This document shows, one piece after another, positions 44,193 to 53,200 of a stretch of 64,000 bases of DNA. Where the stretch lies: assembly GCA_958296405.1 (NCBI GenBank), contig OY282519.1, positions 620,001 through 684,000 on the forward strand, written 5' to 3'. Origin of the DNA: an uncultured Pseudomonadales bacterium (GTDB lineage: Bacteria; Pseudomonadota; Gammaproteobacteria; Pseudomonadales; Azotimanducaceae). The stretch's first letter is position 1; every line of letters starts with the position of its first letter. The translations under genes were made by a program, and so were the position numbers. The notes under the pieces are model-generated. The model ran no database searches, was not told where the DNA came from, and worked only from the letters and a program-made list of their open reading frames with translations.

Positions 44193-44524
44193 TGGGCAGC
44201 TTGCCTAAGGGCAGTCCAAAGGGATCGATTTTATCATTGAACGGGGGCGGGCCGGAGGACAAAGGCGATACCTCCTCCTCGTCGACAAACGACGATCCAC
44301 TCTTGATCAACGAGCTCGTCGCGACAGTTTCGCCATCACCGGGCCGGTACGAAACGACGCGAGACCTGCCGTTCGCCTCAGGCGACTGGCAGGAAGCCAT
44401 CCCTGGGTTGCCGCGCATCCAGCGTCAGCACCTCGCCCTCTGTGTCGAAGCGACTCTGGTGACCCATGTCCGTCGTTCGGCGGATACAGCCTGCGTAAAA
44501 TGGGCAACGCAGACCGGCCTCGAC
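44193..44524. other. Intergenic region upstream of gyrA
   Basis: 332 bp between the helicase stop and the gyrA start, both read on the minus strand; no gene recognised. An AT-rich patch (GATTTTATCATTGAAC near 44226) could hold the gyrA -10 on the minus strand, but I could not pair it with a well-spaced -35. It also marks the junction between the core gyrA block and the accessory island. Confidence 0.4.
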
Positions 44525-47014
44525 TCATCGAATGGGCTCGCTCTCCAACAGATTCAACAAATCCGGCCAAAGAAGCCCTTTCTTTCGCATCGCCTCTCCC
44601 ATCTGCTCGCGCAGCTCCATCGGCAACGCCCCGCTCGCAACGTCCTTAAGCAACGACTCCAGTTTCTCCCCCAGTTCCTTCAAGCTCTCCAATCTCACCA
44701 CTACCATCTCCTCGCTAGGATTCGCGCTCGACGTAGCCTTTTGCTTAGGCCCCACAAACATCGGAACGACTTCCACAATATCTGGGTTTTCCACACGCAC
44801 CCACTGAATATGGTCATACATCTGCCCCACCTCTTTCTTCCCGTAGCTACTACTCTGACTTTTGTTCGTCTTTACTTCTATGCAAATTGCAACGTTGAAG
44901 TCACGCACGATCCACAATACATCGGGCCCCGTACGCACCTCGTTGTCCGGTCTCGAAGACTCGAATCCCAAATATTGACCGAGATACCGCAATGACTCCT
45001 CTACATTCCCGCTCGATCCTCCACGCAGGCCACCCAGATTCAACCGAAGCCCTTTCGGCGGCTCAAGCTCCGATCCTCTACCCGGCAAGATCTGACGGGC
45101 GACCTGATCTACTTGAATTGACACCGTCTCGCCCGCATCGCCGAGAATGTCTTGGTGGCGAGGGACATTCTTTTGAATCGCATGCGCATCTCTGTACAGT
45201 TCCTCCGCCGACGTCCTGTCACCAGACCTCTCAAGTGCGTAGGCCAGCCAAACGCCATGCCATGCACCGGTATTCTCACTCACGCCCATTGCGCTACCAC
45301 GAATTCCCTTCAACGCTTTCGCCGCCCCTTGATAGTTCGAGTCCCAAAGGCGTTCCATGTACTTGCCCTCTCCCAGCGCCACTTCAAGCATCATCTTGTC
45401 ACTTGCGTTCGCAGTCGCAACCTCCTTTTCTTCCGTATCGTCTACATATTTCTTATAGTTGCTCCTCCACTCTGGATTTCTGTCGAGGCAGTACGACGCT
45501 ACACCATTCAGATCACCATCCTCGATTTGATCAGAGAGCTCATGACCAAGCTCGATCTGCCTGCGTAAAAACGAAGGAAGCAGTTTCAGGTTTCTCTCCG
45601 TACCGAGCCATTTGAGGAGGCGTTCGCCCGTTAGGATGACTACACCATGGTCGTTCATACCTCTAGAAATCCGTCCGAAGCACTGCACCAATCGGGAGGC
45701 TATTGTGTTTCTCAGTGCATTATTGATGCGTAGCTGCTCCCAGAGGTAGCGCTCGAGCGGTCCTAAACCTATTGGCAAACCGTCGATGACGAGAATCCGG
45801 CATGTATTTCCCGGAAGGTCTACGCCATCATAGCGACCGACGAGAAGCAGCTTCCTACGTTCATCAGCTCTAGAGTCGCGAAATCTCCTAACCTCGTCTG
45901 GTACGGATTCCCTTTTCGGGGGATTAGCGATCTCCGACCAAGTCTCCGCGCCTTTGTATGTTGGCACGACGATCAAAGCCTTATATCTGCGCAGGAAGTC
46001 GGCGGTCGCTTGGTACTCGTCCGCTTGGCGCGATGGAAACAGCACGAGGCGTTCGCACTTTCCGGCTTTGGTTGACGAAGATATCGTCTTGGTTGGAGCC
46101 CGGCCGAAAGTCCGAGCAAAGGAATCTAGTGCATTTAAAGTTGCCGATAGATAGACTCGGCGCACATCGGTGGAGAAGTAGGGGAGAGTACTCACAGGGA
46201 CAAAGGGGGGAGTGATAGTCAACGATTGTGTTGACAGGAGAAAGCAGCAATGGTCAATGTGATCCCGCAGGTGTTCCCAAGCGAACATGGTACCTTGGTC
46301 TTTCGTTAGACGACTAGACATCAATATTCGCTCTATCTCACTTTTGTGTTGGTAAACTACATTTGGAGGTATCCAGAAAGTGTTGTTGGACACACCATCG
46401 CACATCTCAATGTAGCTAACTGAGCGGCCAACTCTATAATGATAATCCGCAAAGAGTTCGGCTAGTTTCTCGTACGCCGAGGACATACCGCTACGGTCTA
46501 TGCTAAGGGTGAACTGATCCCTTAGTATCTGATCTGCTGTGTGCGCATCGTCGAAGATCACGGCGGCGATGTCGTGTTGCCGGAATATTGTTTTGCCGTT
46601 GAAGATCGCTTGATATGTGGTCAAGCAGGGCTTCTGTGCCCTTTCGTAGCCGTCGTCGGAGAATTCTGTACGGTAGTAGGTCGTGACGTCGAGGCCGTAC
46701 CCAGCCGCCATTTCCCTCGTCTGTTCAATAAGTTGTATGGATGCACATGCATAGACCACTTGCCTAGAAGACTCGTTGACGAGAGATTGGGCGATCAAAA
46801 GACCAACTAGGGTCTTTCCTGCGCCGGTGTTCAGGACAATACTGATGTCGCTTTCGCTACGGTTGGCGTGGAAATCCCGGAGAGCGTCGCCTTGAGGGAG
46901 CCAAAGTTCGTTTACGTTCCCATCCGATATTGTGCAGGACTGGAATATCTCTATCGGGTCAACGGGGCGGGCCGTGCTCGCGGTTGGACGGATCTTATTG
47001 AAATCTATGGCCAT
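44525..47014 (-). CDS. Superfamily 2 helicase fused to a PD-(D/E)XK nuclease domain
   Basis: 829 residues from ATG 47014 (GAGGA about 8 nt upstream). Walker A is LNTGAGKT (61-68), motif II is DDAH (155-158), motif III SATLN (290-294) and motif VI QCFGRISRG (444-452). The segment DGVDLPGNTCRILVIDGLP resembles XPD/DinG-type helicases, although no obvious iron-sulfur cysteine set is seen. After a helical middle part, GPDVLWIV (696-703) and CIEVKTNK (711-718) give the PD...ExK metal-nuclease signature. Base composition is clearly more AT-rich than gyrA. Probably acts on foreign DNA; family name not known to me. Confidence 0.78.
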   Translation of the reverse strand: MAIDFNKIRPTASTARPVDPIEIFQSCTISDGNVNELWLPQGDALRDFHANRSESDISIVLNTGAGKTLVGLLIAQSLVNESSRQVVYACASIQLIEQTREMAAGYGLDVTTYYRTEFSDDGYERAQKPCLTTYQAIFNGKTIFRQHDIAAVIFDDAHTADQILRDQFTLSIDRSGMSSAYEKLAELFADYHYRVGRSVSYIEMCDGVSNNTFWIPPNVVYQHKSEIERILMSSRLTKDQGTMFAWEHLRDHIDHCCFLLSTQSLTITPPFVPVSTLPYFSTDVRRVYLSATLNALDSFARTFGRAPTKTISSSTKAGKCERLVLFPSRQADEYQATADFLRRYKALIVVPTYKGAETWSEIANPPKRESVPDEVRRFRDSRADERRKLLLVGRYDGVDLPGNTCRILVIDGLPIGLGPLERYLWEQLRINNALRNTIASRLVQCFGRISRGMNDHGVVILTGERLLKWLGTERNLKLLPSFLRRQIELGHELSDQIEDGDLNGVASYCLDRNPEWRSNYKKYVDDTEEKEVATANASDKMMLEVALGEGKYMERLWDSNYQGAAKALKGIRGSAMGVSENTGAWHGVWLAYALERSGDRTSAEELYRDAHAIQKNVPRHQDILGDAGETVSIQVDQVARQILPGRGSELEPPKGLRLNLGGLRGGSSGNVEESLRYLGQYLGFESSRPDNEVRTGPDVLWIVRDFNVAICIEVKTNKSQSSSYGKKEVGQMYDHIQWVRVENPDIVEVVPMFVGPKQKATSSANPSEEMVVVRLESLKELGEKLESLLKDVASGALPMELREQMGEAMRKKGLLWPDLLNLLESEPIR

Positions 47015-47056
47015 TTTTAGCTTCCTCGAGGTAGCCCGCAATGTAGGGCCCGGATC

Positions 47057-48052
47057 CTACGGGTCGTCATCCACCGGCGGCAAGTAGGTGGTGCCCACCG
47101 TGCGCCCGCCGTTGCCGTTCGGTCGGTTCGTGTTGCCGGCCAGCGCTCGTTGGCCTAGGCGCACAGCTTCGCCTAACGTGACAAGCGCTAAGCGGCCAAG
47201 GTAGTCGCTGAACGCCCTTAGACCGCCAGTGTTGGCTGTTTCCAAAACGTCGATGTAGTCGCTTCGTCCAACGGCCGTGATGACGGGCGGCGGCTCGCTG
47301 CGGCGGATGAAGGCGTAGGCCATGAGCATCCGCGACACGCGGCCGTTGCCGTCTTGGAACGGATGCGTGCGCACGAAGCGGTGATGCATCCACGCGGCTT
47401 CCACATACACCGGGTAGCGTTGGTGCTCCACTTCCGCGTGCAGGGCGAAGAAGCGGTCCATCTCGTCCTGCACCACCTCCGGCGGGCAGTGCTCGTGCAT
47501 CACGCCGTCCGGGCGGCGCGGGTTGTTGGGGCGGTTCTTCCAGACGCCCTTGCGGCGGAACGGCACCTGCACCCTGCGGCCCTCGACCGTGAGGCCGGCG
47601 ACGGTCTCCTGATGGCGCGTCACCAACTGATGCCATGACTTCACGGCATGTTGCGTGAGCGGCCGGCCGCTGGCGACGTCTTCGAACAGCATGTTGTAGG
47701 CCGCCTCCTGATCCGCGAGCAAGCCCTTGATGGTGCGGTCTTCGACGTTCTCCACCGTGTGGGAATGCACCACGCCTGCAAGGCCCTCGGCGATGAGTTG
47801 CTCGGTGATGCCCGCCTTGAGGGTGTAGAGGCCCTCGATCTGGCCAGTTTCGATGGCGAACGCCCGACCACGCTCTTCCAGCCACTTGTCGAGGAAGGCG
47901 CGAGGTTCGTCGCGGTCTTTCAGGCTGGCGCGGATGGACGCCCACTTTTCGCTGAGCTCGGCGTAGCCGGGCACCAGCCAGCTGTGGGCGCTGTCCGGCA
48001 TGCCGGTGAGCGGGCGCCAGACTTCGGATGGCTGTTGGTTGGGGAGGTGCAT
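47057..48052 (-). CDS. Fic/DOC family protein (putative AMP-transferase)
   Basis: 331 residues. The Fic core motif HPFQDGNGRVSR is complete (residues 230-241), including catalytic His 230. Upstream, TGQIEG (69-74) fits the inhibitory helix (S/T)xxxE(G/N), which marks self-inhibited class II Fic proteins. These usually transfer AMP from ATP to a hydroxyl of a target protein. ATG at 48052 was chosen for its strong GGAGGG site. It lies 42 bp upstream of the helicase gene on the same strand. Target unknown; toxin-like, regulatory or defence roles are all possible. Confidence 0.88.
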   Translation of the reverse strand: MHLPNQQPSEVWRPLTGMPDSAHSWLVPGYAELSEKWASIRASLKDRDEPRAFLDKWLEERGRAFAIETGQIEGLYTLKAGITEQLIAEGLAGVVHSHTVENVEDRTIKGLLADQEAAYNMLFEDVASGRPLTQHAVKSWHQLVTRHQETVAGLTVEGRRVQVPFRRKGVWKNRPNNPRRPDGVMHEHCPPEVVQDEMDRFFALHAEVEHQRYPVYVEAAWMHHRFVRTHPFQDGNGRVSRMLMAYAFIRRSEPPPVITAVGRSDYIDVLETANTGGLRAFSDYLGRLALVTLGEAVRLGQRALAGNTNRPNGNGGRTVGTTYLPPVDDDP

Positions 48053-48159
48053 GGGACCCTCCAAGGGCTGCCTTGCTCGGCAGCCGTCAACTGCGCGGAC
48101 ATGCTCGTAACATCTGTCCGAACGGAGAAATTGTACGCCTGAATCGCCCTTGCCGTCGT

Positions 48160-49068
48160 TCACCAACTGGCAGTGACCATCCTGCCGGATTTCTCTCGGG
48201 AGCCTTCCCGAGCCCACAACGTCAGCCGCAGCTCGTCCCCAAACAATCGGTACTCCGGTTTGCGCCCAGAGTGCGCTTCACCCTGTCGCAAGATCTTCCG
48301 CACCCCTTCGCCACGGGACTCTAGGAACACTTGCCCGGTGCGCTTGCTGCGCAGGCGGGAGAGGAAGCTCACCAAGAGCTGGTTGCGGGTGAAGGTTCGG
48401 TAGGGCATGTCGTCTAGCGTTAGCGTGTTGGGCAGTTTGCCGGGGCTGTAGAGCTCCAGCCGGTCTGCAAACAGGAACAGGCGAATCTTCGAACCGCCAA
48501 TGGAATAGTCTCGGTGGGCGACGGCGTTGACGATGGCCTCGACCACCACATCGATGTCATACGCACGCCGGCCGGCAGCGGGGCCGGCCTGCTGCATGAA
48601 CTGCGCGACGAATGCGGTGGCTGCGTCTATCTGATCGGAAGCGGGGCCAGCGAGCCGTTCAACGTGCGTGAGATGATCGGACGAGAGTTCCGTGCCTGCG
48701 TAGCAGGCGGCTTCGATGGAGCAGGACGGCAGGAAGTCCGTTGGCTCGGTGGCGAACGCGAGCAGCCCGGCGACGGTGGGGCGGTCTGCGCCGTGCTCGT
48801 CCCGCACGGCGACGTGGGTGTTGCGCAGCAAGTCCAACCACGGAATCGTCGGCGAGCGGCCAAAGAAGGCTTCGAGGCGATGTTGGTTGAGGCCCGAGAC
48901 GCTGGCGGCGAGCACGGCCTGTTCGTCGAAGACGTACTCGCGGCCGCGCTGCTGGAACAGGCGCACGAGTTCCGCCGGCGTGAGGTCTCGCGTCGAGCTG
49001 CCAATGCGCTGGTAGTAGCGCCCCGCCCGTTGTGCGATGCATATGGAAACCACGAGGAATTTCGCCAA
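48160..49068 (-). pseudogene. 5'-truncated Schlafen/AlbA_2-type ATP-binding regulator
   Basis: About 300 residues match the C-terminal two thirds of the COG2865 family. The end of the AlbA_2/Schlafen domain (GRYYQRIGSSTRDLTPAEL) is followed by a GHKL-like ATPase part (VVVEAIVNAVAHRDYSIGGSKIRLFLFADRLELYSPG). Full members carry roughly 100 more N-terminal residues with the ESxxxEFK core; here an in-frame stop lies just upstream of 49068 and the sequence beyond is unrelated. Only a TTG is available as a start, with no ribosome site. Probably inactive, lost at a rearrangement boundary near the IS element. Confidence 0.7.
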
Positions 49069-49293
49069 GGATCAAGTGATTGCGTTCGCCTTCACCCGCA
49101 GAACGTGCATGCCAGCACGGTTTGGGCTTCGCCACGGCGAGTGCAGATAGAAGCCGAGGCACTGCGCCAAGCCGGGATGTGGCCGCAGTCGCCACACTCG
49201 CGCCCTTGACGCCGGGTGGAGGATCACCTTCTTCTGCTGGGAAGAAGAAACGCACATCCCTGTCCCACACGTCAAGTAGCCGCACGGCGACCG
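49069..49293. other. Unassigned sequence between the truncated regulator and the IS element
   Basis: 225 bp with no open frame I can assign. It abuts both the broken end of the Schlafen-type gene and the left TTAA target duplication, so it is likely debris from an earlier insertion or deletion. Confidence 0.4.
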
Positions 49294-49297
49294 TTAA

Positions 49298-49310
49298 GGA
49301 AGGTCTGAAC
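49298..49310 (+). repeat. Left terminal inverted repeat of the IS5-family element
   Basis: GGAAGGTCTGAAC, preceded by TTAA at 49294-49297. Confidence 0.88.
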
Positions 49311-49443
49311 CGACGGCTGGCGGTCGGCGAAGGCGGGTTCGACAGCGCCTTGGGCGCGGAACCGCCGCGAATGTGGCGCGATTCCGCCGCTTCGACGCCG
49401 TTTCCGGCGTTTTCCCCGCCTTCCGGGCGCACGGGCGCCGCGC

Positions 49444-50385
49444 TCAGGCGGCCAGCCTCCGCTCGGCGATCAGCAGGTTGGCGAAGCCCAGCAGCAGCGC
49501 GATCCGCTGCGCGTTCTTGTGAAGCCCGCGGTAGCGAACCTTGCCGTAGCCGAACATCCGCTTCACGTAGAAGAACGGGTGCTCCGCCTTGGCGCGGACC
49601 GACGCCTTCTCCTTCTCCCGCAGCGCCGCCTCGCCGCCGGCCTCCAACTGCCGCCGCAGGCCCGGACGCATCGCCACCCGCCAGTCCACGCCCCGGCCCT
49701 TGTTCTCCGGGCGCTTCTCCACGCCCCGGTAGCCCGCGTCCGCCCAGACGCGCCTCTCGCCGCCGTGCAGGAGGCGGTGCGCATGCGCCACGTCCGACTC
49801 GCTCGCCGCCGTCGCCGCGAAGCTGTGCGCCACCCCCGTCTCCGCGTCGGCGCCAATGTGCATCTTCATCCCGAAGTGCCACTGGTTCCCCTTCTTCGCC
49901 TGCCGCATCTCCCGCTTCCCCGAACGGTTCTTCGTCGACGACGGCGCCTCAACGATGCTCGCGTCAACCACCGTCCCCTCCCGCAGCCTCAGGCCCCGCG
50001 ACGCCAAGCTCGCGTTGGTCGCCGACAGCAGCGCCTCCCCCAAGCCGTGCCTCTCCAGCAGATGGCGGAAGTTCAGGATCGTCGTCTCGTCCGGCAGCGC
50101 CGACAGCTTCAGGCCCGCGAACCGACGCACCGACTCGACCTCGTAGAGCATGTCCTCCATCGCCGGATCGCTCAGGTTGTAAAACAGCTGCGCGCAATGC
50201 ACCCGCAGCATCGACGACAGCGGATGCGGCCGGCGGCCGCGGCCCGCCTTCGGACAGTGCGGACGGACCGCCTCCTCCAGCTCCTTCCACGGAACCAGCC
50301 CGTCCATCCGCTCCAGGAACTTCTCCCGCCGCGTCTTCCGCTTCTTCGCCGAGTACTCCAACTCCGCGAACGTCGCTTGGGTCAT
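49444..50385 (-). CDS. IS5-family transposase
   Basis: DDE transposase of 313 residues. The N-terminal DUF772-type domain (HPLSSMLRVHCAQLFYNLSDPAMEDMLYE) is followed by LPDETTILNFRHLLE, typical of IS5. Catalytic acidic residues are D141 in VVDASIVEAPSS, the Asp in WADAGYRGVEKR, and a later Glu. The frame is intact with ATG at 50385, so the element may be active. Confidence 0.93.
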   Translation of the reverse strand: MTQATFAELEYSAKKRKTRREKFLERMDGLVPWKELEEAVRPHCPKAGRGRRPHPLSSMLRVHCAQLFYNLSDPAMEDMLYEVESVRRFAGLKLSALPDETTILNFRHLLERHGLGEALLSATNASLASRGLRLREGTVVDASIVEAPSSTKNRSGKREMRQAKKGNQWHFGMKMHIGADAETGVAHSFAATAASESDVAHAHRLLHGGERRVWADAGYRGVEKRPENKGRGVDWRVAMRPGLRRQLEAGGEAALREKEKASVRAKAEHPFFYVKRMFGYGKVRYRGLHKNAQRIALLLGFANLLIAERRLAA

Positions 50386-50439
50386 CGAACGCCTCTCCCA
50401 ACGGTCAACGCGCCCATTGTCGCAGCACAGCCGGCGCTT

Positions 50440-50452
50440 GTTCAGACCTTCC
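50440..50452 (-). repeat. Right terminal inverted repeat of the IS5-family element
   Basis: GTTCAGACCTTCC, the exact reverse complement of the left end, followed by TTAA at 50453-50456. Confidence 0.88.
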
Positions 50453-50456
50453 TTAA

Positions 50457-50800
50457 CACCCGATTCTCGGGGACGGGCGGGCTTCAACCCATGCGATCAA
50501 CCGCCCAAGGTTGAAATCGGCAGCGCCGTCCCCACAATCATGCTATGCTCACGGCAACCTGTTCAACGAGGGCTGAAGCCTCTTGCAAGAGGCATTGAAC
50601 GGCCTGCCGTCGCAATGCGAACGCGGTGGAGCCCATGAGAGGTTCGGAGAGTTGAATTGAAGAGGGGCAATCCCCATGTTACTCGCTAGCCCCACCGGCA
50701 TCAGCGACGCATCTTAAACGCCTCGTTTGGTCGACGCATCGACTATCGCATCTAAAAGCAGCCTGTAACGGGCGACTACGCAACGCTGGAGACTCGCATC
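50457..50800. other. Non-coding stretch upstream of the ubiquitin-like operon
   Basis: 344 bp between the IS target duplication and the Ubl start. No gene recognised. It contains the nested palindrome at 50561-50600. The operon promoter should lie here, but no clear -35/-10 pair was found. GGAG stands 8 nt before the Ubl ATG. Confidence 0.4.
50561..50600. repeat. Nested palindrome
   Basis: GTTCAA (50561-50566) and TTGAAC (50595-50600) enclose a perfect 16-bp palindrome GCCTCTTGCAAGAGGC (50578-50593). The left arm has 11 extra bases, so the structure is asymmetric. It could be an RNA hairpin, a regulator site or a relic of a mobile element end. Confidence 0.6.
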
Positions 50801-51061
50801 ATGGACATTGACGACAAAGGCCAACCCAAGGGCATCCGCATACACCTCAACGGCAGAGAGAAGGTTCTGACCGACGACAGCATCAGTTTCGAGGATTTGG
50901 TTCTCCTCGCCTATCCCAAAGGCACCGAATTCGATCAGCCTGGCTATCGCGTGGTCTTCAGCAACGCCGTAAGACCGCAATATGGTGATCTTAAGGCCGG
51001 CGAAGTGCTCAAAGCCAAGGACGGAACTGTGATCAATGTCACACCCTTTGATCTCTCATAG
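50801..51061 (+). CDS. Ubiquitin-like protein, multiubiquitin domain family
   Basis: 86 residues forming one beta-grasp unit of the multiubiquitin type: IRIHLNGREKVL, then ISFEDLVLLAYPKGTEF, YRVVFSN, and the closing strand GDLKAGEVLKAKDGTVINVTPFDLS. It ends in Ser and has no Gly-Gly tail, as usual for this family, so maturation or a different linkage chemistry is implied. Its 3' end overlaps the E1-like gene by 26 bp. This is the presumed modifier of the three-gene ubiquitin-like system. AT-rich relative to the chromosome. Confidence 0.85.
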   Translation: MDIDDKGQPKGIRIHLNGREKVLTDDSISFEDLVLLAYPKGTEFDQPGYRVVFSNAVRPQYGDLKAGEVLKAKDGTVINVTPFDLS

Positions 51062-52250
51062 CGAGGACTTGACCCGTCTCTCGGATGACGGATATGCCCT
51101 AGCAATCCGAGAGGGAACGCTCATTGTCGAGGACATACCTTACGAGAGCGCTGGATCGATCAAGCGAGGTGCGTTCGTGTGCGGAATCGAAGACGACACG
51201 AATAGGACGTTGCCACCGGGCGATCATACTATCTGGTGGTCAGGAGACGAGCCTAACGCTTCACTCATGGGGCTCCCAAAGAGTCCTGTCTGCTCTAGAG
51301 ACGAGCAGATGATAGCTGGTGTACAAGTCCGATTCCAGTTGTCCATTAAGAAGAGGTCGCCGGATGGAACTTGGGAAAACTATGTCGATTACTTCGACAA
51401 AATTTCCACATACGCAGACTTTCTGACCCGCAGTGCCAAGGCAATTGATGCATCCGCAACCGCTCGCTCCAACAGAGTAATTTCGTTTGAGGAATCCGAA
51501 AGCGTCTTCACGTATAGAGATGGAACGGCCGGCGTCCGGGGTATAGATCTGATAAACAAGAAGGTTGAGCACGAGATAGTAGCTATTGTTGGGACCGGTG
51601 GTACGGGAAGCTACATACTAGACTTTGTGGCCAGAACGCCGGTTGCCGAAATACATCTCTTTGATGACGATATCCTTAAGGCCCACAATGGCTACCGGTA
51701 TCCAAGCGCCGTCCCGAAAGAGGACATCCAAGAGCGTCTGCATAAGGCTAAGTTTTTGTCTGACAAATACAGCAAGTTCCGTCGCGGCATATTTCCTCAC
51801 ATAGAGCCAGTTTTTGAACAACTACCAAAATCTCTTTTGTCGGCAACGTTTGTGTTTCTCGCTATCGATAGCCCGCGAGACAAGCGCGGCATAGTGTCCA
51901 GCTTGCTTCGATTAAAGATGCCTTTCGTTCATGTGGGCATCGGCATCAACATCCGACGACCGACCCCACACGATAGTCTATTTCAGGCCCTTGCTGCGGT
52001 GACCCTAATGGCGCCGGAAGATGACTGGAACTTGGACTTGGCGGCGAAATACATAGGATTTTCGGACCCAGAGGAACAGGGCATTTATTCGTCGAATGCG
52101 CAAATCGTGGAGCTTAATGCGTTGAACGCAGCATTGGCGGTCCTCCAATGGAAAAAGTATAGGGGAGTGTATGTGTCAGGCAAAGAGATAGATACTAGCT
52201 ACGACACTGAACTCCACCTACTGGCCAAGCGCACGGCGACGGAGAGGTGA
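51036..52250 (+). CDS. E1-like ThiF-fold adenylyltransferase with N-terminal DUF6791 domain
   Basis: 404 residues in two parts. Residues 1 to about 165 match DUF6791, starting SHPLISHSEDLTRLSDDGY and including STYADFLTRSA. Residues about 180-390 are a ThiF/E1 adenylation domain: nucleotide loop VGTGGTG (185-191), LFDDD (208-212), NGYR (218-221), and FLAIDSPRDKRG. This domain contains no cysteine, so it has neither a zinc CxxC pair nor a thioester cysteine; the whole protein has only C49 and C86, both in the N-terminal part. It presumably adenylates the C-terminus of the adjacent Ubl. Confidence 0.85.
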   Translation: MSHPLISHSEDLTRLSDDGYALAIREGTLIVEDIPYESAGSIKRGAFVCGIEDDTNRTLPPGDHTIWWSGDEPNASLMGLPKSPVCSRDEQMIAGVQVRFQLSIKKRSPDGTWENYVDYFDKISTYADFLTRSAKAIDASATARSNRVISFEESESVFTYRDGTAGVRGIDLINKKVEHEIVAIVGTGGTGSYILDFVARTPVAEIHLFDDDILKAHNGYRYPSAVPKEDIQERLHKAKFLSDKYSKFRRGIFPHIEPVFEQLPKSLLSATFVFLAIDSPRDKRGIVSSLLRLKMPFVHVGIGINIRRPTPHDSLFQALAAVTLMAPEDDWNLDLAAKYIGFSDPEEQGIYSSNAQIVELNALNAALAVLQWKKYRGVYVSGKEIDTSYDTELHLLAKRTATER

Positions 52251-52636
52251 TAGTCGAACCGGCGTTCGTAGAGTCCATACCGGACACAATGCGTCCAAGA
52301 GTCATCTATGTGTGCCTTCCGTGCAAGGTGGTGTGTCACCTGTGTCTTTGTGGCTGCGGCTGTGAAGTTGTGACACCTCTCACACCCTTGGATTGGTCAT
52401 TGACCTACGATGGTAAGCATGTCTCTTTGTATCCTTCTATCGGCGGATGGGCGTTACAATGTAAGTCGCACTATTTCATCAGGCGAAACCAAGCAATCTG
52501 GGCCGGTAGGATGAGCAAGCGAGCGATCGAGCGTAGTCGTCTATCACGAGCACGGGCAGGCGACCTGGATGCAGAACGAGGCTTGGGGGCTAGATGGTGG
52601 CGATGGAGTCGTCTTTGGCGGCAGATACGGAGGTAA
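52247..52636 (+). CDS. DUF6527 protein (putative peptidase/partner of the Ubl system)
   Basis: 129 residues from GTG 52247, overlapping the E1-like stop as GTGA. Residues 1-90 match DUF6527: FVESIPDTM, a Cys/His cluster CHLCLCGCGCEVVTP (Cys 30, 33, 35, 37, 39 and His 31), DWSLTYDGKHVSLYPSIG and CKSHYFI (Cys 72, His 75). The arrangement suggests a bound metal. The last 35 or so residues are Arg/Trp-rich and look unlike the family, perhaps read-through into downstream debris. The family is found next to DUF6791-ThiF genes and is thought to process or remove the Ubl (recollection, moderate certainty). Confidence 0.78.
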   Translation: MIVEPAFVESIPDTMRPRVIYVCLPCKVVCHLCLCGCGCEVVTPLTPLDWSLTYDGKHVSLYPSIGGWALQCKSHYFIRRNQAIWAGRMSKRAIERSRLSRARAGDLDAERGLGARWWRWSRLWRQIRR

Positions 52637-53200
52637 ATCCGCCACACCGTCTCGGACTCGGTGTACGGCAGCACGGGATACACGATTTCTTGGCGTATCC
52701 TGAGCGCAGTCTGCAAGCCTTGGTTGTCGGGAAGGTGGGTCCCTTTACCGGACCATACTCGGTCAGCGTAAGGACAAGACCGTATTGGCGGTGCGCATCG
52801 GACCTACCGACAGCTGCGTGGAACGGCTAGTGGACTTGGACCACCGTTCGACTGTCGGCAAAAGTCGAAGATGCGCCTCACCAGCTCGGCTTGGCTCTTT
52901 GCGGCGAGTGAGCACAGATAGAACCGCCCCACCAGCCACCCTTTTGGTCGATGGGCACCGCCAGACAGACTGCTCTTCGAGAGAAGTTGCCCACAGGCGA
53001 GGAAGGGCCTTGGCGTTGAAGGCGGTGGCGCGGGAGAAGGCTCGGGCGACCATGAATCAGCCCCGGGGCAGATGGCGCATAACTCCTTGACGACGCTGCC
53101 GTGCCGTGTGGTCGACTTAGACGCCGCCGCCCACCCCCGTCCCTTCCATCCCCCCGCCCCATCCGCTAGACTCACGCGACAGTGCAGCAGGGACGAGCGC
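52637..53200. other. Non-coding or decayed region before rpoZ
   Basis: 564 bp with short overlapping open frames in several frames, none recognisable. It marks the right edge of the accessory island. The segment CTAGACTC near 53166 could contain the rpoZ -10 (TAGACT), but the -35 is poor. A stretch near 52905-52925 resembles one near 49135-49155 (both contain CGGCGAGTG and CAGATAGAA); this may be a diverged repeat or chance. Confidence 0.4.

Follow-up and report, generated by a model that had tools for sequence, protein, structure and literature searches.

The stretch analyzed here, referred to as the window, comprises 64,000 nucleotides (G000:C1:620001-684000) of the 3.8-Mb genome of an uncultured Pseudomonadales bacterium, hereafter the host (G000). 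It carries a compact three-gene operon that encodes a ubiquitin-like protein (Ubl), an enzyme resembling ubiquitin-activating enzymes (E1) and a DUF6527 protein. The features listed below combine the open reading frame (ORF) list with Pfam assignments.

50801..51061, + strand: Ubl gene, 86 amino acids, ATG start; a single beta-grasp Multi_ubiq protein
51036..52250, + strand: E1-like gene, 404 amino acids, ATG start; DUF6791 fused to ThiF
52247..52636, + strand: DUF6527 gene, 129 amino acids, GTG start
51036..51061, + strand: overlap of the Ubl and E1 genes, 26 nucleotides; the last Ubl codon, TCA (Ser), lies over E1 residue 8 (CAT)

A first-pass annotation, made from the letters of the window, had proposed this layout, and the ORF list bears it out (overlaps of 26 bp for Ubl/E1 and 4 bp for E1/DUF6527). 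The families it named are likewise recovered by profile searches, with all matches above the Pfam cutoffs. ORF 1 matches Multi_ubiq PF14452 (E 9.9e-8, 32.5 bits, cutoff 24.5), ORF 2 matches both DUF6791 (E 2e-31, 109.6 bits, cutoff 25) and ThiF (E 1.6e-8, 34.5 bits, cutoff 28.1), and ORF 3 matches DUF6527 (E 6.6e-22, 77.6 bits, cutoff 23.6). As also proposed, no separate ubiquitin-conjugating enzyme (E2) or JAB protease is present, with neither domain detected by Pfam in the three operon proteins or the six neighboring ORFs. PADLOC returns only weak E1-E2 matches on the operon, located in the nucleotide-binding part, and the NCBIfam PRK06153 models score under their cutoffs. Scans for promoters and terminators find two of each, with 1.7 and 2.3 expected. 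The operon is a real, intact member of a known, scattered class.

That class seems to be the one predicted in 2006 as operon type 6e (Iyer, Burroughs and Aravind; PMC1779556), and the passages of that paper describing the type include E1s with JAB replaced by an uncharacterized domain X, alongside a metal-binding protein Y. The description fits the window operon in its Ubl of one to three repeats (a single Multi_ubiq Ubl here), in the exchange of the N-terminal JAB of the E1 for another domain (DUF6791 with ThiF and no JAB match here), in a small, probably metal-binding protein, and in its sporadic, mobile occurrence. It differs in that an inactive E2/RWD domain is listed for the type and no such gene lies in the window operon. 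The operon seems to represent type 6e in its domain X form, sister to the Bub operons, and domain X would be DUF6791, judging from the wording of that description. Kinship with Bub had been suggested in the first-pass annotation, and the nearest solved E1 is indeed BubCD of the Citrobacter BubA-BubB-BubCD system (PDB 9ea4, 9ea5, 9ea8, 9eae, 9eav, 9d59), by sequence profile, Foldseek and VIA-align alike. Shared features are a multi-ubiquitin Ubl, a downstream DUF6527 gene and, at some loci, upstream CapK/CapS-like genes. By contrast, the window operon has no BubB (Prok-E2_E) and no JAB on its E1, with DUF6791 instead, and its Ubl ends in FDLS, in contrast to the NNG, with terminal Gly, of the Citrobacter BubA constructs. 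The reading that we favor with moderate confidence is that of a mobile three-gene cassette for E2-less Ubl conjugation, belonging to a DUF6791 branch of polyUbl (type 6e/Bub-like) operons, in which adenylation of the Ubl serine would lead to conjugation with no thioester formed on the E1.

To relate the two branches, we surveyed a set of 398 genomes from the phylum, the host among them. DUF6527 is matched at 22 places (19 genomes), Prok-E2_E above cutoff at 7 (6 genomes) and DUF6791 at 8 (8 genomes). Surroundings were searched at 21 of the 22 DUF6527 places (all except the window) and divide evenly: seven hold Ubl, DUF6791, ThiF and DUF6527 without Prok-E2_E or JAB (eight with the window), seven hold Prok-E2_E, JAB, ThiF and DUF6527 without DUF6791, and seven show neither gene set by the models used. 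Since the two sets never share an operon, DUF6791 stands in for E2 and JAB together, which extends the earlier suggestion that it replaces the E2. The description of the operon as a small, minimal version stands only in a relative sense, as the DUF6791 layout is about as frequent in this sample as the layout with E2 and JAB.

Two of the latter operons lie in the host itself, each with a multi-ubiquitin gene, Prok-E2_E, JAB-ThiF and DUF6527 (L038 at G000:C1:2413907 and L039 at G000:C1:1215503); these are the only two places with Prok-E2_E in the host, both outside the window operon. Both supplied seeds for the models of Prok-E2_E and JAB. Scores for JAB are weak in three of the five non-seed JAB loci (8.7e-7, 6.8e-5 and 3.8e-5). 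Pfam names the E2 gene Prok-E2_E in 4/4 loci tested and identifies Prok-JAB in both host loci, with L039 just below the cutoff. A Prok-E2_E protein query also finds 88 plasmid records. Ten operons fetched from these contain DUF6527 in every case, DUF6791 in none and a detected JAB in eight; five of them had themselves seeded the DUF6527 model applied there.

Six query peptides run against species genomes yielded 26 relatives of the operon, distributed over Proteobacteria, Acidobacteria, Actinobacteria, Chloroflexi, Bacteroidetes, Planctomycetes and other phyla. They show 27-38% identity, except L001 at 86%. Gene order recurs among them, with the Ubl frame ending over the E1 start in 25/26; in L012 no Ubl frame was found in the 209 bases between E1 and contig end. 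DUF6527 lies downstream of E1 in 24/26 (the L010 copy is cut by the locus end), and the sequence of L016 stops 96 bases past E1. At L040:2033-3230, DUF6791 and ThiF form two overlapping ORFs, through a frameshift or as a natural arrangement. Seven of 97 genomes (the host with its relatives), the host among them, have an E1 match at E 1e-3, and beyond the host only G002 matches the DUF6791 part, split over two ORFs. In a plasmid collection, the E1 occurs in 114 of 72,556 records (43 mobilizable, 40 conjugative, 31 neither), which are not independent because 45 of the 114 are from Acinetobacter. Two viral-collection contigs also carry the E1. The operon class is widespread and often found on plasmids.

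The closest copy, L001, comes from an uncultured Pseudomonadales metagenome-assembled genome and is 84.9% identical in DNA over window positions 50593-52560. Its 17.2-kb stretch shows one further DNA match to the window at E 1e-5, of 157 bp at 49115-49259. Comparison of the two copies by the NG86 method gives dN/dS values of 0.076/0.459 for E1, 0.080/0.646 for DUF6527 and 0.116/0.425 for Ubl, the last resting on the 66 shared open codons, as the L001 Ubl starts in another frame. As dS is about four- to eightfold above dN in all three genes, the cassette is kept by selection, and such a copy under purifying selection argues that the operon is not a product of chance.

The C-terminus of the Ubl is a second recurrent trait of the branch. 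The window protein ends in ...NVTPFDLS, with a terminal Ser and no Gly-Gly, and longer Ubls occur in some relatives. A C-terminal Ser is present in 35/35 DUF6791-locus Ubls read, namely 26 sequences (the window and 25 relatives, without L012) and nine further DUF6791 loci (L103, cut at the start, was left out). Moreover, the Ubl stop keeps a fixed 26-nucleotide register over E1 in 35/35 sequences with both genes. In the set of 26, the last Ubl codon is TCG in 14, TCT in 8, TCA in 3 and TCC in 1, and the E1 residue 8 read over it is R in 14, L in 8, H in 3 and P in 1. Because the overlapping E1 residue varies freely and the serine is constant, the serine is the conserved element. A start codon for E1 (ATG, TTG or GTG) stands at the aligned position in 20/26 and, as ATG, 15 nucleotides earlier in another three; neither place has one in L008, L013 and L014. 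With E1 start codons this variable, the start codon by itself does not account for the fixed register. A programmed frameshift producing a Ubl-E1 fusion was considered and dropped, as E1 has a start codon of its own at one of these two places in 23/26 sequences. Even the divergent Ubl-E1-DUF6527 operon L042:7427-9327, whose E1 N-terminus is not matched by Pfam DUF6791 and whose overlap is 11 nucleotides (by first ATG), yet has a Ser-terminal Ubl.

Ubls of the sister branch (Prok-E2_E with JAB) end differently. L108, L110 and L038 have a terminal Gly, and others carry one near the end (NPGQN in L113, FGAR in L075, FGL in L077, and nine residues before the end in L107). In some, the Gly precedes a fused E2 domain. 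JAB presumably cuts the sister-branch Ubl at that Gly. In the DUF6791 branch, exposing the Ubl tail would take no JAB; the Ubl ORF ends at the fixed Ser with nothing after it, so a processing enzyme seems unnecessary. Among solved structures, the ZDHYS365 multi-ubiquitin protein (PDB 9cd2) has a C-terminal part resembling the L022 Ubl (E 1.3e-6), and its similarity to the window Ubl is weak (E 0.28, not significant alone). It differs in containing several Ubl domains, the first part matching the Bub-type Ubl of L106 (8.6e-18), and in being a Ubl structure only, with E1 and partner not seen.

The E1-like protein consists of DUF6791 (residues ~10-162) and a ThiF adenylation domain (~168-404), and its predicted structure has a mean pLDDT of 85. 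G186, G188, G189, G191, D210-D212, R221 and K237 are invariant in 27/27 E1s, and D278 is kept in 26/27. We take these to be residues of the ATP site, as in ThiF/MoeB-type enzymes. The only Cys residues of the window enzyme are at positions 49 and 86. As its ThiF part lacks cysteine, a ThiF-domain thioester is impossible in this protein. Across the class, the two commonest Cys columns are filled in 19/27 and 17/27 E1s (the commonest absent in the window), and the ThiF part has no Cys at all in 4/27. Judging from these alignments, a ThiF-domain thioester is not general in the DUF6791 class.

DUF6791 itself contains no conserved catalytic Cys, the commonest column being that filled in 19/27, whereas P35, Y36, H64, G70, P73 and S103 are kept in 37/37 sequences. 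Prok-E2_E likewise lacks an invariant Cys and has an invariant Ser and His in 7/7. Ser103 together with His64 would be the natural candidate for an oxyester site, and this is only a guess. A profile comparison of 37 DUF6791 with 16 Prok-E2_E sequences (hhalign, L104 row left out) gave a full-length, colinear alignment with score 17.2 and P 0.04 (16.4 and 0.054 with the L104 row included). It was rejected as evidence that DUF6791 is an E2 on the basis of the controls given below. The DUF6791 fold was barely probed by the structure searches, because the PDB lists for the whole E1 and the top of BFVD are filled by ThiF domains.

The third protein displays the motif C33-x-C-G-C37 ... C72-x2-H75. 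C33 is conserved in 32/32 sequences, H75 in 31/32, C37 in 30/32, and C35 and C72 in 29/32. DUF6527 is therefore likely metal-binding, by its residue pattern. The signature printed for protein Y in the type 6e description is C-x3-C-x35-38-H-x2-C, compared with C33-x3-C37-x34-C72-x2-H75 here, with the last pair in the other order. The predicted structure (pLDDT 88) combines a beta domain and a C-terminal helix, and no similar solved fold was found for the model. In L041:3379-4215 (- strand), a ThiF protein without DUF6791 is fused to DUF6527. An SDH-type protease gene lies ~1.6 kb from this fusion on the same strand.

Genes upstream of the operon include the following.

49447..50487, - strand: IS transposase (DDE_Tnp_1 / DUF772), immediately upstream
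44528..47041, - strand: helicase matching the candidate phage-defense system PDC-S28 (PADLOC E 1.3e-274, nearly whole length), a neighbor outside the operon
47060..48217, - strand: Fic-family protein, a neighbor

Another neighboring gene matches the RecG C-terminal (HATPase_c_4) type, and rpoZ followed by spoT lies downstream. In the related genome G008, spoT DNA is 98% identical to that of the host, and no E1 match occurs. The interval in G008 that corresponds to window 44258-53122 runs from a gene that we take, by its sequence alone, to be gyrA up to rpoZ (L124, G008:C1:1630000-1649000). It contains Cas9, Cas1 and a CRISPR array with 66-nucleotide spacing, which makes the gap before rpoZ look like a defense hot spot. 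The G008 repeat is absent from the window, and the compared 19-kb stretch of G008 has no match to the PDC-S28-type helicase.

Regulators were scanned at 37 DUF6791 loci (window included) and at L042, with models seeded from some of these loci. CapK/CapS-like pairs lie upstream at L004 and L021 (both seeds) and L073, and pairs of HTH and ImmA/IrrE-like proteins at L018, L066 and L042 (a seed); other loci give single weaker matches. According to PMC13373217, regulators of this kind are DNA-damage switches that precede Bub as well as further immune operons. The first-pass annotation had placed related operons near defense genes, and the helicase, the Fic protein, the hot-spot interval and the regulators at some loci agree with this circumstantially. 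A small protein with a similar VV...GGW/DGW motif, presumably DUF2188-like, is encoded just upstream of the operon at L001:6784-7497 and L026:5523-5876, and nothing clearly corresponding occurs in the window, where the best tblastn match has E 0.67.

Together, these data suggest how the cassette may operate. The ThiF domain would bind ATP and adenylate the C-terminal Ser of the Ubl, as its conserved site residues indicate. The Ubl would be translated in final form and need no JAB trimming, and once activated it would be handed on without an E1 thioester. The fused DUF6791 replaces both the E2 (Prok-E2_E) and JAB of the sister branch, and its invariant His64 and Ser103 are candidates for catalysis. 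DUF6527, shared by both branches, would be a metal-binding helper for which docking of targets or of the enzyme is likelier than tag removal. The product would be a Ubl-tagged acceptor protein, perhaps formed under stress or phage attack.

Several observations weigh against this reading. In the hhalign controls, 7 of 200 column shuffles matched the score of 17.2, the reversed alignment reached 16.1, and a control Ubl alignment scored higher (19.1), with four other controls at 10.5 to 14.6. For a Ubl that is conjugated, Ser would be an uncommon last residue. The L001 Ubl (L001:7707-8026) begins in one frame and continues in another, either a broken gene or an assembly error, and L018 has no recognizable DUF6527 in 5.4 kb, at most a degenerate stretch. 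Regulator pairs occur at only 5/37 DUF6791 loci plus L042 (several loci are cut upstream), and most tested regulators score under the Pfam cutoff. The neighborhood case for defense is circumstantial, the phage collection holds no E1 match (0/50,697 records), and PMC13373217 states that protection against phage has not been shown for Bub itself. In the literature accessible to search, no biochemistry on the DUF6791 branch was found. The terms DUF6527, DUF6791, 'multiubiquitin domain-containing' and 'multi-ubiquitin domain' were not found in use in the literature searched, and 'Prok-E2' occurs once in the available text of PMC10910872.

Other explanations distribute the roles differently. The first-pass annotation had suggested that DUF6527 may serve for processing or removal, substituting for JAB, which would leave DUF6791 as the E2 only. 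The presence of DUF6527 in the operon and its conserved Cys/His residues agree with this idea, but DUF6527 is common to both branches and therefore does not behave as a JAB substitute. It follows the JAB-E1 in 7/7 loci and accompanies all ten plasmid Prok-E2_E operons, it is fused to a ThiF protein in L041, and the Ubl has no tail to process. We regard this assignment as very unlikely. It is also unlikely that no protein is conjugated and that the Ubl C-terminus is adenylated in the manner of MccB or ThiF for a small adduct or group loading, as with ThiF proteins of ribosomally synthesized and post-translationally modified peptides (RiPP) or sulfur carriers. The Cys-free ThiF part, the non-Gly terminal residue and the high rank of MccB and ThiF in the E1 fold lists are compatible with such chemistry. 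The natural substrate of MccB is a short peptide (MccA, as named in PDB titles). MccB (PDB 3h5n) shares the ThiF-type adenylation domain and a similar fold, but the partner of the window enzyme is an 86-residue beta-grasp protein rather than a short-peptide gene. Gene order parallels Bub, and the E1 lies nearer to BubCD than to MccB, both by sequence profile (2.7e-11 vs 3.9e-7 at best) and by Foldseek of the E1 model (1.8e-13 vs 1.3e-10).

A further alternative, to which we give a limited chance, treats DUF6791 as a recognition or regulatory domain without E2 function, so that target lysines attack Ubl-AMP directly. Archaeal SAMP conjugation needs no E2 according to the available part of PMC11354881, and both the non-significant E2 homology of DUF6791 and its lack of a conserved Cys would fit. 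Against this stand the replacement of Prok-E2_E by DUF6791 at every DUF6791 locus examined and the retention of His64 and Ser103 in 37/37. A bolder version of the favored E2-less conjugation scheme is a complete pathway free of thioesters throughout, with a ready-made Ser-ended Ubl, a Cys-free E1 domain, Ser103 as oxyester carrier on DUF6791 acting as a hitherto unrecognized E2-equivalent, and one-way tagging without a dedicated removal enzyme. We consider this conceivable but doubtful. Oxyester intermediates had been mentioned for at least one class of Bub operons in the first-pass annotation, and no confirming paper was found in the literature accessible to search; PDB titles mention that the depositors mutated BubCD D104 and Y370 for the ternary complex.

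Of the new findings, three are the most useful: the pattern of replacement, the terminal serine that does not vary and the lack of cysteine in the ThiF domain. The operon offers a clean way to test which elements of ubiquitin chemistry can be dispensed with. The sister branch keeps its E2, its JAB and a Gly close to the Ubl terminus, all three of which the DUF6791 branch drops, retaining the E1 and DUF6527. If conjugation works here, an E1-domain thioester and a Gly tail are not needed, and DUF6527, as the common factor, becomes the next protein to explain. Because the host holds two operons with E2 and JAB and one with DUF6791, both branches can be compared within a single organism. A ClpP-like SDH-type protease gene follows one of the former, L039.
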